64,000 nucleotides of DNA from an uncultured Bacteroidota bacterium (lineage in GTDB: Bacteria; Bacteroidota; Bacteroidia; Flavobacteriales; Flavobacteriaceae): assembly GCA_902598295.1 (NCBI GenBank), contig CACKBA010000001.1:1-64000 (forward strand). The letters run 5' to 3'. Numbering within the stretch: position 1 is the first letter of the stretch; each line of letters opens with the position of its first letter. The position numbers and the translations under genes were made by a program. The notes beneath the pieces were generated by a model, which was not told the origin of the DNA, ran no database searches, and was given only the letters and a program-made list of their open reading frames with translations. Below are positions 10,325 through 15,899 of the stretch, in pieces.

Positions 10325-10492
10325 CTAATTTTTTTGTGGAAATCTACCATAGTTTCCCATTCCATCATAGTCCATTTCATTAGCTTGATCTGAATCCTTG
10401 TACTTATCTTTTTCCTCTTTGTTAACTAGAAATACACTTGCAATCACCAAACAACTAACCAAAAAACCAATTATAAATAAATACAATTCCAT
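10325..10492 (-). CDS. 55-residue single-helix membrane microprotein, cassette copy 1
   Basis: An ORF of 55 codons. One N-terminal transmembrane helix (IIGFLVSCLVIASVFLV) is followed by a charged tail containing DQANEMDYDGMGNYGRF. It starts 2 bp after the stop of the 57-residue gene at 10495. The same arrangement, a WVPSILA-type protein followed by a one-helix protein with an acidic tail, occurs again at 15575-15899, which supports both being real. Function unknown. Confidence 0.6.
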   Translation of the reverse strand: MELYLFIIGFLVSCLVIASVFLVNKEEKDKYKDSDQANEMDYDGMGNYGRFPQKN

Positions 10493-10494
10493 TA

Positions 10495-10668
10495 CTATTT
10501 ATATACGCTTTTAACGTATGAACCAAAAGCTAATATTGAGGGGACCCATAATCCTACATAAAAACCTTCTTCCTTAAAACCATTAAACCATAATCCAACA
10601 GATAAAGCAAATGAAATTAATACTGCAATTAAAAGCAATTTATCTGACTTTTTAAATTTGGAAAACAT
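10495..10668 (-). CDS. 57-residue WVPSILA-type membrane microprotein, copy 1
   Basis: 57 codons with two hydrophobic segments (~residues 11-28 and ~36-51). The second reads GFYVGLWVPSILAFGSYVKS, closely matching the protein at 15575 (GIFVGIWVPSILALSIAIRQ); a W-F-x-G turn is also shared. The two are clearly paralogues. It is divergent from the membrane-protein gene at 10750. Function unknown. Confidence 0.6.
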   Translation of the reverse strand: MFSKFKKSDKLLLIAVLISFALSVGLWFNGFKEEGFYVGLWVPSILAFGSYVKSVYK

Positions 10669-10749: not shown

Positions 10750-11622
10750 ATGACTGAAAAAATTAATAGTGTTTTTAAAAAAGTTTTTTCAGATAGGAAT
10801 TTAAAAACATTTGAAAAAATTATCTTATTTCTAGCTACGGCTGGATTTATAATTCACTTGGTTCTAATATTATTAAATAACAAGGGCTACGTAGATCTAT
10901 CATTTTTTCAGGGTAGCCTATTTGTAAATCCAATTTCAGCAATTTACACCCCTTTTTCTTTCATCTTAATATATGAGGCATTTCTATTAATCTATTATTT
11001 GCCTAGATCATTTACAACCTCCATAGCAAAGCAATTTGAGATTATGTCTCTCATTTTAATAAGAAAAATATTTAAAGATATCCCTGATGTTAATCTTTCT
11101 GATAATTGGATTTTAAATGAAAATAACCTTCAATTGATTTATGATTTGACAGGTGTATTAATTGTTTTTTATCTAATATATATGTTTAAAAAGTTGAAGG
11201 AAAATTTACCGAAACTGCCTGTTCATCAAAACTTGGAGCGTTTCCTAGGTTACAAAAGATTAATTAGTCTTTTATTAATTCCTACATTAATTATTCTTTG
11301 TGTATTTAGTTTTATAGATTGGTACGGTGCTATATTTATTGGTGGAGAGGGCTCTCCAAATATTGATTATTTATTTTTTGTGGAATTTTTTGGAATATTA
11401 ATTTTGGTTGATGTATTTATTTTATTGATTTCTTTTCAATACACAGAAAGATACTCACAACTGGTTAGAAATACCGGTTTTATCATATCAACCATACTTT
11501 TAAGATTGTCATTTAATGCAGTTGGGTTAACCAGTGTAATTCTATTGATAAGCGGAATAGTTTTCGGATTAATTATTCTTTACATTTATAACAAAATGGA
11601 AAGAACATCTTTAGTCACATGA
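10750..11622 (+). CDS. Polytopic membrane protein of unknown function
   Basis: 290 residues with about seven hydrophobic helices (near residues 20-45, 60-85, 125-147, 170-190, 205-235, 240-260 and 262-283). The loop after the second helix holds a conserved-looking segment (PRSFTTSIAKQFEIMSLILIRKIFKD). No transporter, kinase or enzyme motif was seen. Its 3' end overlaps the convergent lipoprotein gene by 12 bp. Probably a conserved flavobacterial protein, but I cannot name a family. Confidence 0.7.
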   Translation: MTEKINSVFKKVFSDRNLKTFEKIILFLATAGFIIHLVLILLNNKGYVDLSFFQGSLFVNPISAIYTPFSFILIYEAFLLIYYLPRSFTTSIAKQFEIMSLILIRKIFKDIPDVNLSDNWILNENNLQLIYDLTGVLIVFYLIYMFKKLKENLPKLPVHQNLERFLGYKRLISLLLIPTLIILCVFSFIDWYGAIFIGGEGSPNIDYLFFVEFFGILILVDVFILLISFQYTERYSQLVRNTGFIISTILLRLSFNAVGLTSVILLISGIVFGLIILYIYNKMERTSLVT

Positions 11623-12180
11623 TCCTAAGCTATAACTGATTAGTCCAGCACATCCAGCCAAGGTAGAGTTATTGTAAGTAAAACCATCGCAACCACAAAC
11701 AGGGTCTACAACAGTTGGTGCAATGCAATTTTTATTAATCTTTGTTAAATCTATACATCCATCAAAATATTTACTGATGAATTCCTCATTTTCTTGTGAT
11801 CCAAATGTCATATTACTAATTTCTGAGATGGCAGCTCTGATGAGTTCAACTGAATCAGATGTGTCTGGCATTGTAAATGTTGATCTATCCATACTAATTA
11901 ATTCGTTTTTGTCGGAATTTAGATCAATAGCTGTGTAAAAATAATATCTTAGTACGTAACCAATACTGATTTCTAGATTTCCATAATTTTTATCAAAAAC
12001 TGCTGAATCAGAAATTGTTGTTTTTAAAATTCGATAAGGCTGATTAAAACCTGAATTAGTTCGAAGAGCTGGCAACTCAATTATGTCAGATAGATTTTGG
12101 TCTCTATCATTATCATTAGGGTATTCTTCTGAACAAGAAATTGAGTTAAAAATAAGAAGCATAACAAAGAAGTTTTTCAT
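11611..12180 (-). CDS. Lipoprotein with Kazal-like C-terminal domain
   Basis: I choose the ATG at 12180 because it gives a lipoprotein signal peptide (MKNFFVMLLIFNSISC, lipobox Cys at residue 16), whereas the longer frame does not. The 189-residue product has an unrecognised middle part. Its C-terminal ~50 residues have the spacing C...C...VDPVCGCDGFTYNN...A.CAG......GSC, typical of Kazal-type protease-inhibitor-like domains. It is likely anchored in the outer or inner membrane facing the periplasm. It is last in the operon with pirin, FMN reductase and the CDGSH micro-ORF. Confidence 0.75.
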   Translation of the reverse strand: MKNFFVMLLIFNSISCSEEYPNDNDRDQNLSDIIELPALRTNSGFNQPYRILKTTISDSAVFDKNYGNLEISIGYVLRYYFYTAIDLNSDKNELISMDRSTFTMPDTSDSVELIRAAISEISNMTFGSQENEEFISKYFDGCIDLTKINKNCIAPTVVDPVCGCDGFTYNNSTLAGCAGLISYSLGSCD

Positions 12181-12965: not shown

Positions 12966-13499
12966 TTATATTTTAGAGATAAATTCATTGAGTTTGGATT
13001 CAAAAATAGATTTAAGTTTAGGGTCGGTTATTCCCAAGTTATCATTAAAGTTCTCATTAAAGTTTGGTAGAGAAAAAGTTGAAATATGGTTTGTATTACG
13101 CCTACTTATCCTAGAAAATGCTGCTTCAAGAACTATAACAGCTCCATTCCCGCCTGTTGATGTTGCTAATAAAAACATTGGTTTGTTATACCATACATTT
13201 TTATCAATTCTTGATATCCAGTCAAATATATTTTTGAAAGCACTGGTATAAGAGGCATTGTGTTCTGCAAAAGAAATTACAACAGCGTCTGAGTTTTTAA
13301 ATTGTTGTTTAAATCTGTGTGCTAGGTCTGGAATACCATCTTCATTTTCTCTGTCAATACTATAAATTGGCATTTCATAATCATTCAAGTCGAGGATGTT
13401 TACATCTGCATTAGGAATACAACTTGCCACATAGACAGCAAGTTTCTTATTTATGGATTTTTTCGAGGAGCTCGCTCCAAATGCTAAAATTTTACTCAT
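12966..13499 (-). CDS. NAD(P)H-dependent FMN reductase
   Basis: A 177-residue flavodoxin-like protein with an N-terminal FMN phosphate-binding loop (FGASSSKKSINKKLA), a middle SFAEHNASYTSAFKNIFDWISR segment typical of the NADPH-dependent FMN reductase family, and LLATSTGGNGA before the C-terminal helix. It reduces free or bound FMN with NAD(P)H. Its ATG overlaps the stop of the 28-codon CDGSH ORF by 1 bp (TAATG), so the two are coupled. Pirin follows after 5 bp. Confidence 0.9.
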   Translation of the reverse strand: MSKILAFGASSSKKSINKKLAVYVASCIPNADVNILDLNDYEMPIYSIDRENEDGIPDLAHRFKQQFKNSDAVVISFAEHNASYTSAFKNIFDWISRIDKNVWYNKPMFLLATSTGGNGAVIVLEAAFSRISRRNTNHISTFSLPNFNENFNDNLGITDPKLKSIFESKLNEFISKI

Positions 13500-14388: not shown

Positions 14389-15000
14389 ATGAAAAATTTA
14401 GTCGTTATAGGGCACCCTGACAAAAATTCTTTTTGCCATAACGGGATTTTTAAAACGATTTGTTCTGAAATTAGTAATAAAGGTGAAGAACTTGAGATAA
14501 TAGATCTATACAGGGATAGTTTTACCCGCCCAAGAACTAAGCTCATTGAAAAGTATAAAAAACTTGTTACTTGGTGTGAAAGAATATACATCGTTTCACC
14601 AGTTTGGTGGTTCAGATTGACTCCTAGAATGGAAGTTTTTTTTGACGAGGTATTTACCCCTGGATTTGCATATAAGTTTGTGAATGTCACGAAAACCTAC
14701 GCTTATCCTGTACCGTTTTTAAAAGATAAAAAAGTGCGAACCTATATCACTCATGGAGCACCCTCACTTCCTGTTAGAACCCTTTATGTAAATTCAGTAA
14801 AACTAAGACTTGTAATGGGTGTGTACACTTTTGTTTTTGGATGGAGATTATCCCTCTTTACAAAAACAAAGCAATTCTGGTCGGTACCCTTTGTTTCTGA
14901 AAAAAAGAGAAAGAAATATTTAAGAACTGTTCAAAAAGATATAAGAAGGGATTTGAGACACTCTGTTGTTTCTCAAAAAGAAGCACTATCTTCACTCTAA
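14389..15000 (+). CDS. NAD(P)H dehydrogenase, flavodoxin-like fold (MdaB/KefF type)
   Basis: A 203-residue protein with the FMN/FAD-binding start VIGHPDKNSFCHNGI and the quinone-reductase motif VSPVWWFRLTPRMEVFFDEV...PGFAYKF. These are hallmarks of the DT-diaphorase-like family that reduces quinones by two electrons, or that serves as an ancillary subunit of Kef potassium efflux. No kef gene is nearby. The C-terminus is Lys/Arg-rich. The following membrane protein starts 16 bp downstream. Confidence 0.88.
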   Translation: MKNLVVIGHPDKNSFCHNGIFKTICSEISNKGEELEIIDLYRDSFTRPRTKLIEKYKKLVTWCERIYIVSPVWWFRLTPRMEVFFDEVFTPGFAYKFVNVTKTYAYPVPFLKDKKVRTYITHGAPSLPVRTLYVNSVKLRLVMGVYTFVFGWRLSLFTKTKQFWSVPFVSEKKRKKYLRTVQKDIRRDLRHSVVSQKEALSSL

Positions 15001-15015
15001 ACTAACTGCTATTCA

Positions 15016-15453
15016 ATGTATAACTTTAACACCAATGACTACCTAGTCAGAATTCCTTTATTTATCATATTTTTTTGGTTTGGGTTTTTAAAAATTATTG
15101 ATTTATCTCCAGCACAAGAACTAGTTATGGACACGGTGTATTGGATGCCTTTTTTGGATGCTGCAACCTGGACAATAATTATTGGTGTTTGGGAAGTTTT
15201 CATTGCAATTTTCTTTTTGTTTAAAAGAACAACACTGATTGCTATGGTTCTACTTCTAATCCAGATGACAGGTACCTTTTTACCACTAGTAATTCTGCCT
15301 GAAGTTACATTTCAAAACTCAAATCCTTTTTTACCTACACTGGAAGGTCAGTATATAATTAAAAATATAATTATAATAACTGCTGCTATAATTATTGGTG
15401 GAACACAACTTAAAGTAGGATTATTCAATAAATTTTTTAAAGATGGGGTATAA
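15016..15453 (+). CDS. DUF417/DoxX-like membrane protein
   Basis: A 145-residue membrane protein with four helices. The first carries FWFGFLKIIDLSPAQELV, like the WxGFLKF(T) signature of DUF417 (YkgB) and DoxX-like proteins; the last hydrophobic part follows LEGQYIIKNIII, matching the family's G.(F/Y)(L/I)(I/L)K(D/N) pattern. Some DoxX relatives form complexes with oxidoreductases, and the flavodoxin-like enzyme immediately upstream fits such a pairing, but this is inference. Confidence 0.78.
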   Translation: MYNFNTNDYLVRIPLFIIFFWFGFLKIIDLSPAQELVMDTVYWMPFLDAATWTIIIGVWEVFIAIFFLFKRTTLIAMVLLLIQMTGTFLPLVILPEVTFQNSNPFLPTLEGQYIIKNIIIITAAIIIGGTQLKVGLFNKFFKDGV

Positions 15454-15538
15454 GAGTGAAATATTTGTTTACTTATGGATTATCTTAATCTTTATATTGG
15501 GAAGTTTAGAGATTTATAAAAAGTATAAAAAAAAATAA
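15443..15538 (+). CDS. 31-residue putative single-helix microprotein
   Basis: An ORF of 31 codons whose ATG lies 11 bp inside the end of the DUF417-like gene. It has one hydrophobic helix (residues ~7-22, VYLWIILIFILGSLEI) and a strongly basic tail (YKKYKKK), the layout of a small Nin-Cout membrane peptide. It fills the gap before the gene at 15575. With no homology search this could be chance. Confidence 0.4.
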   Translation: MGYKSEIFVYLWIILIFILGSLEIYKKYKKK

Positions 15539-15574: not shown

Positions 15575-15769
15575 GTGATGATTAATTTCTTCTTAAAATA
15601 CTATCCAATCATACTAGCCTTTATATCTTTTTTGTTTTCTGTTTTTCTCTGGTTTAGCGGTGATAAACTGAGTGGAATTTTTGTTGGAATTTGGGTTCCA
15701 TCAATACTTGCTCTTTCAATTGCAATACGACAACGGAGAAATGATGATAAAGATTTAGGCAATGGATGA
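15575..15769 (+). CDS. 64-residue WVPSILA-type membrane microprotein, copy 2
   Basis: 64 residues with two transmembrane segments (~8-27 and ~34-52) and a charged tail (RQRRNDDKDLGNG). The segment GIFVGIWVPSILALS is nearly the same as in the 57-residue protein at 10495, and the first helix ends in a shared LWF(S/N)G turn. Its stop overlaps the start of the next micro-ORF by 8 bp. Function unknown; two copies in one window suggest a small conserved family. Confidence 0.7.
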   Translation: MMINFFLKYYPIILAFISFLFSVFLWFSGDKLSGIFVGIWVPSILALSIAIRQRRNDDKDLGNG

Positions 15770-15899
15770 TAAAATAATTTTTATTGTAGGCTTTGTAATA
15801 TTTTGCCTTTATTTAGTTGGATTCTTGGCTGTCATATATACTCAAAATAAAATACAAGACAAGGAGCTAGAAAACGATCCCGAAATTGAAGGCAACTAA
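15762..15899 (+). CDS. 45-residue single-helix membrane microprotein, cassette copy 2
   Basis: 45 codons, starting inside the last codons of the 64-residue gene (ATGGATGA overlap). One helix (IIFIVGFVIFCLYLVGFLAVIY) precedes an acidic tail (KELENDPEIEGN). This matches the layout of the 55-residue protein at 10325, which likewise follows a WVPSILA-type gene. It ends tail-to-tail with the gene at 15896, overlapping by 4 bp. Confidence 0.6.
   Translation: MDDKIIFIVGFVIFCLYLVGFLAVIYTQNKIQDKELENDPEIEGN

Follow-up and report, generated by a model that had tools for sequence, protein, structure and literature searches.

Two membrane microproteins, which we call A and B, form a two-gene cassette that is present twice in a 64,000-nucleotide stretch of DNA (the window) from an uncultured member of the Flavobacteriaceae, and that recurs in the same order across families of the Bacteroidota as circumscribed by GTDB. 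The two genes are very probably real, co-expressed and acting together, and it is likely that their products touch each other. As judged from sequence comparison and gene placement, A and B may constitute a small, co-translated and mutually binding module with an accessory or assembly function for energy-converting membrane complexes, a proposal to which we give a little less than an even chance. Proteins as short as these are easily missed in annotation, and the pair is conserved and under selection across families of Bacteroidota (sensu GTDB) despite having no entry in the libraries that were searched.

Table 1. Genes of the two A-B cassettes and genes upstream of the second cassette (positions in the window)
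Feature	Position	Strand	Description
A1	10495..10668	(-)	57 aa; two-helix membrane protein with GLWVPSILA segment; ORF
B1	10325..10492	(-)	55 aa; one helix, charged tail ending MDYDGMGNYGRFPQKN; ORF 2 nt after A1
Flavodoxin_2-fold oxidoreductase	14389..15000	(+)	PF02525, E=2e-19; 15 nt before the DoxX-like gene
DoxX-like membrane protein	15016..15453	(+)	145 aa; weak DoxX_2/DUF417 Pfam matches
C	15443..15538	(+)	31 aa; one-helix microprotein, MGYKSEIFVYLWIILIFILGSLEIYKKYKKK; between the DoxX-like gene and A2
A2	15578..15769	(+)	63 aa; two-helix paralogue of A1; ORF
B2	15762..15899	(+)	45 aa; one helix, acidic tail; ORF with 8-nt overlap with A2

The four reading frames described in an earlier, sequence-only reading of the window (57 and 55 codons with a 2-nt gap; 64 and 45 codons with an 8-nt overlap) were confirmed. 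The start of A2 was set at the ATG at 15578 by comparison with two related loci (L003 and L004), and the alternative start, a GTG at 15575, gives the longer form of 64 codons. The cassettes lie in inverted orientation with about 5 kb between them, a point that the sequence-only reading did not mention, and the genome of origin (1.24 Mb, 75% complete) holds exactly two copies of A, both of them in the window. AlphaFold2 predicts two helices for A1 (residues 8-28 and 32-56; mean pLDDT 81.8) and a helix spanning residues 2-39 for B1, in which residues 1-20 reach a pLDDT of about 93 and the tail is of low confidence. The segment [VIST][GAS].W[VAI]P[ST] is present in the two-helix protein A, as seen in the alignments of both A1 and A2 and in the two-helix model. 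Because both ends of A, and the stretch that follows the helix of B, carry positive charges, A is probably a helical hairpin with both ends in the cytoplasm, and the same pattern suggests that the charged tail of B faces the cytoplasm as well.

It is the membrane helix of B, not its tail, that is conserved. The acidic tail attributed to B in the sequence-only reading is found in B1 and B2 but is not a general property, as B in other Flavobacteriaceae is 30-37 aa long and nearly tail-less. The tail was rejected as the functional core of the protein: the sequence YDGxGNxGRxP, shared by B1 and Formosa-type B, is absent from B of cultured-type Flavobacteriaceae and of family f24. The EF-hand-like look of the B1-type tail is faint, with calmodulin matches only at E>0.5.

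Purifying selection on all four genes is strong. Comparison of the window with L004 gives 21.0 synonymous and 6.0 nonsynonymous changes for A1 (dN/dS 0.04), and 19.0 and 1.0 for B1; comparison with L003 gives 11.0 and 3.0 for A2, and 15.0 and 6.0 for B2. Against L003-L005 the dN/dS ratio is 0.06-0.08 for A2 and 0.05-0.08 for B2, and over A1, B1, A2 and B2 the close-pair values range from 0.01 to 0.08, which shows that A and B are genuine coding genes. An A+T-rich genome such as this one yields many short hydrophobic frames by chance, but the probability that A and B are spurious open reading frames of this kind is negligible: motif and gene order are kept across families and close-pair dN/dS does not exceed 0.08, so that this explanation is already refuted.

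Relatives of A were collected from 23 named contigs, from 24 of 101 Flavobacteriaceae genomes and from a 396-genome sample of the phylum, and B was scored as a one-helix ORF (hydropathy test) starting between -35 and +30 nt from the stop of A. Such an ORF is found at 94 of 109 non-redundant A loci (five of these being CrcB genes that adjoin the longer, Chlorobi-type A and are counted by the hydropathy test), versus 32 of 628 control genes from the same loci, an excess far above what chance would give. In the core loci of Bacteroidota sensu GTDB (families f1, f5, f6, f23, f24, f25, f29, f30, f36 and f50), which leave aside the longer Chlorobi-type A, the 'FVGQWAAP' type and the single Halobaculum and Rubrobacter plasmid relatives, B accompanies A at 89 of 93 loci, versus the same control frequency. 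Of the four exceptions, one lacks B, two are fusion genes that stand last in their cassette, and at the fourth B starts 152 nt away. The co-occurrence of the two genes, raised for checking on the strength of two copies, therefore extends well beyond the window, and since B is not absent or disrupted at most A homologues, the earlier claim of a functional pair is supported. We infer that A and B together would form the 'small membrane complex' that had been suggested for them.

Further relatives of A occur without B. A third type with the sequence FVGQWAAPxLL and a soluble N-terminal extension has no B beside it (L143, L145, L146), and distant single relatives of A, also without B, are carried by plasmids of a halophile (Halobaculum) and an actinobacterium (Rubrobacter). 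In the Chlorobi class a CrcB/FluC-type gene often comes next after the gene for a longer A-like protein (IFIGLWAPTI), as in L107-L110 and L142.

A tree was built from 82 A proteins; it has only 63 columns, so that its deep forks are unsure. A2 falls in a 25-row clade (support 100/100) that excludes A1, and A1 groups with A1-like genes of other Flavobacteriaceae (80/95), among them the copies that L011 and L013 carry on the minus strand. Both versions of A are held by L004, L011 and L013, where they are likewise divergently oriented. A recent tandem duplication was rejected, since the cassettes are inverted and A1 and A2 belong to separate old clades. Judging from their sequences, marine Flavobacteriaceae like the source organism keep two anciently diverged versions of the A-B cassette.

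Independent evidence that A and B are a physical pair comes from natural gene fusions. In eight genomes (G236, G225, G370, G487, G179, G335, G378 and G105) of a class that looks like Chlorobia, A is followed by a B-A fusion of 93-103 aa, whose B-like helix continues into an A-like hairpin. In six of them (G225, G370, G487, G236, G179 and G335) the operon for alternative complex III (ACIII) holds a tightly spaced A-BA-B series, which has the orientation of the operon, fills the interval from actB to actC and lies about 11 nt after actB in G225 and G236. G378 carries unfused A and B genes in the actB-actC slot and an A-BA copy on another contig, and in G105, which is without ActC, A-BA is placed two genes ahead of ctaA, the gene for heme A synthase. 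Here the assignment of ActA-F and CyoE rests on their similarity to each other together with recognised sequence features. The A proteins in the slot belong clearly to the family (E 1e-9 to 6e-16) and form one clade (96/81); the placement in the ACIII operon is that of one lineage and probably goes back to a single insertion event. A genome of the same family, G386, has no A-B between actB and actC (gap 71 nt), and in the genome of the window the actB-actC gap is 52 nt, the A-B copies sitting outside the act operon as they do in most other holders.

ACIII (detected as ActC) is found in 290 of the 396 phylum genomes and in nearly all of those outside family f18. Among the core A-B holders of the phylum sample, G105 alone is without ActC. 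With ACIII so widespread outside f18, its co-occurrence with A-B is uninformative and was dropped as evidence. Nor can A be essential to ACIII, since A is absent from 77 of the 101 sampled Flavobacteriaceae genomes. The structure of ACIII from R. marinus was reported without an A/B-like subunit, and ActG is an optional one-helix subunit encoded in only some act clusters (PMC5928083). In a search for homology of A and B to ActA-G, the profiles of A and B matched none of the chains of a solved ACIII. The identification of B as ActG was rejected, as the operons that contain B also have a distinct gene resembling the ActG candidate of R. marinus (E ~1e-7); the best match between B and this candidate has an E of 0.07.

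Other genomic contexts of A-B are varied. The cassette lies directly 3' of ccsBA (cytochrome c maturation) on the same strand in G092 (51 nt) and G009 (65 nt), and ccsBA is within a few genes of it in three further genomes. Rhodopsin and blh-type genes adjoin A-B in four f24 genomes (L114, L081, L087, L088), MscL is a neighbour in five Flavobacteriaceae loci, and at many other loci the neighbours are unrelated. In the window, a 290-aa membrane protein without a Pfam match (10750-11622, plus strand) is divergent from A1 and has relatives near A in L003, L004 and L063, and a lipoprotein-like ORF (11611-12177, minus strand) whose C-terminus is weakly Kazal-type (E=0.003, below cut-off) has relatives near A in L003, L004, L011, L013 and L059. 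Also on the minus strand, a 28-aa ORF (MKSIDKPMCGCGNTSNPNGYCDGSHSKK, 13499-13585) that resembles a minimal CDGSH iron-sulfur motif protein is located directly upstream of a 177-aa ORF at 12966-13499.

At the second cassette the DoxX-like gene is upstream of C-A2-B2 in the same direction of transcription, and in the window's close relatives A-B is likewise found downstream of a flavodoxin-fold oxidoreductase gene and a DoxX-like gene. The frame of C, which the sequence-only reading had missed, is conserved in L003-L010 (GYKS/GFKS...YxW...K(K), with a basic end), starting at ATG or GTG or a few codons upstream; as its dN/dS of 0.32 against L003 is less extreme than the values for A and B, its coding status rests mainly on the conservation of frame and motif. 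A2, B2 and C could accordingly be pictured as helper helices that anchor or regulate the upstream oxidoreductase and DoxX-like protein, given that flavodoxin-fold relatives are near A in 12 loci, that DoxX-like relatives precede A in 9 (with a 4-nt overlap with A in L063), and that C is conserved at this position. These neighbours are missing, however, from cassette 1 and from nearly all other relatives, so that such a role cannot be the general role of the family, and we regard it as improbable.

The phylum-wide pairing in fixed order, together with the placement in a respiratory gene cluster in one lineage, suggests that A and B may be small components or helpers of the cell's energy machinery that have been overlooked. 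We propose that they would be co-translated as subunits of one small membrane module and would bind each other, the natural fusion joining the end of B to the start of A; most likely they would serve energy-converting membrane complexes in an accessory or assembly function, the best candidate being ACIII/cytochrome oxidase or the supply of cytochrome to it. That the role of the family lies in the electron-transport chain has close to, but not quite, an even probability; a function of the window's copies in ACIII itself is unlikely. The respiratory role, and its transfer to the window copies, is what we infer from genes elsewhere. A wider reading, which we hold as tentative and rather doubtful, would make A-B an unrecognised phylum-wide accessory module of electron transport in Bacteroidota/Chlorobi (for ACIII, oxidase, cytochrome maturation and perhaps light-driven pumps), with two specialised versions in marine Flavobacteriaceae and, in one Chlorobi lineage, an ACIII that includes a two-fold A/BA/B helix bundle absent from solved structures.

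A physically paired module of general use, in ion, lipid or osmotic homeostasis and with no specific respiratory tie, is a possibility to be reckoned with, though a minority one; the ACIII-operon placement would then be an opportunistic recruitment in one lineage. The range of neighbours (MscL, CrcB beside the longer Chlorobi-type A, the f24 rhodopsins and many unrelated genes) agrees with it, as do the B-less single relatives on halophile and actinobacterial plasmids and a patchy distribution that often involves marine or halophile-type genomes, but cytochrome-linked contexts recur in three settings (the ACIII operon, ctaA and ccsBA) and the ACIII placement is kept across several genera. It is very improbable that A-B is a small toxin pair, such as a toxin-antitoxin or holin-like membrane system: the proteins are short and hydrophobic, occur in two or three copies in some genomes and have weak holin- or bacteriocin-like profile matches, but those matches are far below cut-off, a tblastn search with A2 against 50,697 phage records gave no match, and strong purifying selection, long-term vertical retention, a fixed two-gene order with fusion and a place inside a respiratory operon are all at odds with such a system. 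Phage or plasmid cargo was also rejected, there being no phage match and plasmids carrying only distant single-A relatives.

Neither A nor B matches a Pfam, NCBIfam, PHROG or PDB family above threshold; the best PHROG match was unconvincing (E 0.0016 over 23 residues) and a PDB profile search with A and B gave nothing usable. In Pfam and NCBIfam, the catalogued small subunits, among them CcoQ/FixQ, CydX and KdpF, did not match above the curated cut-off. A full-text search of the literature found no paper with the WVPSILA string and nothing relevant on conserved small-protein pairs of flavobacteria. Should A-B belong to ACIII-oxidase supercomplexes, or assemble them, it would add subunits absent from solved ACIII structures and make the assembly of ACIII directly accessible to genetics; even if it has no such role, the B-A fusion points to a clear, testable two-component membrane microprotein complex.

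Small accessory membrane subunits are known as a kind, and the A-B pair is new to the libraries searched. The likeness of A and B to DUF3953, SE1626, Ycf66_N and 7TMR-DISM is one of hydrophobic helix composition only, and the weak matches to these families are all below curated cut-offs. CydX and CcoQ/FixQ are one- or two-helix microproteins encoded beside genes for large membrane complexes, and A and B resemble them in being tiny membrane proteins that, in one lineage, are encoded beside genes of such a complex; they differ in their obligate two-gene architecture with fusions and in matching no profile above threshold. With respect to ACIII (ActA-F, ActG/ActH), the sequences of A and B bear no relation to those of ActA-F and the window copies lie outside the act operon, but the Chlorobi-class A-BA-B series lies within it, and ActG sets a precedent for an optional subunit.
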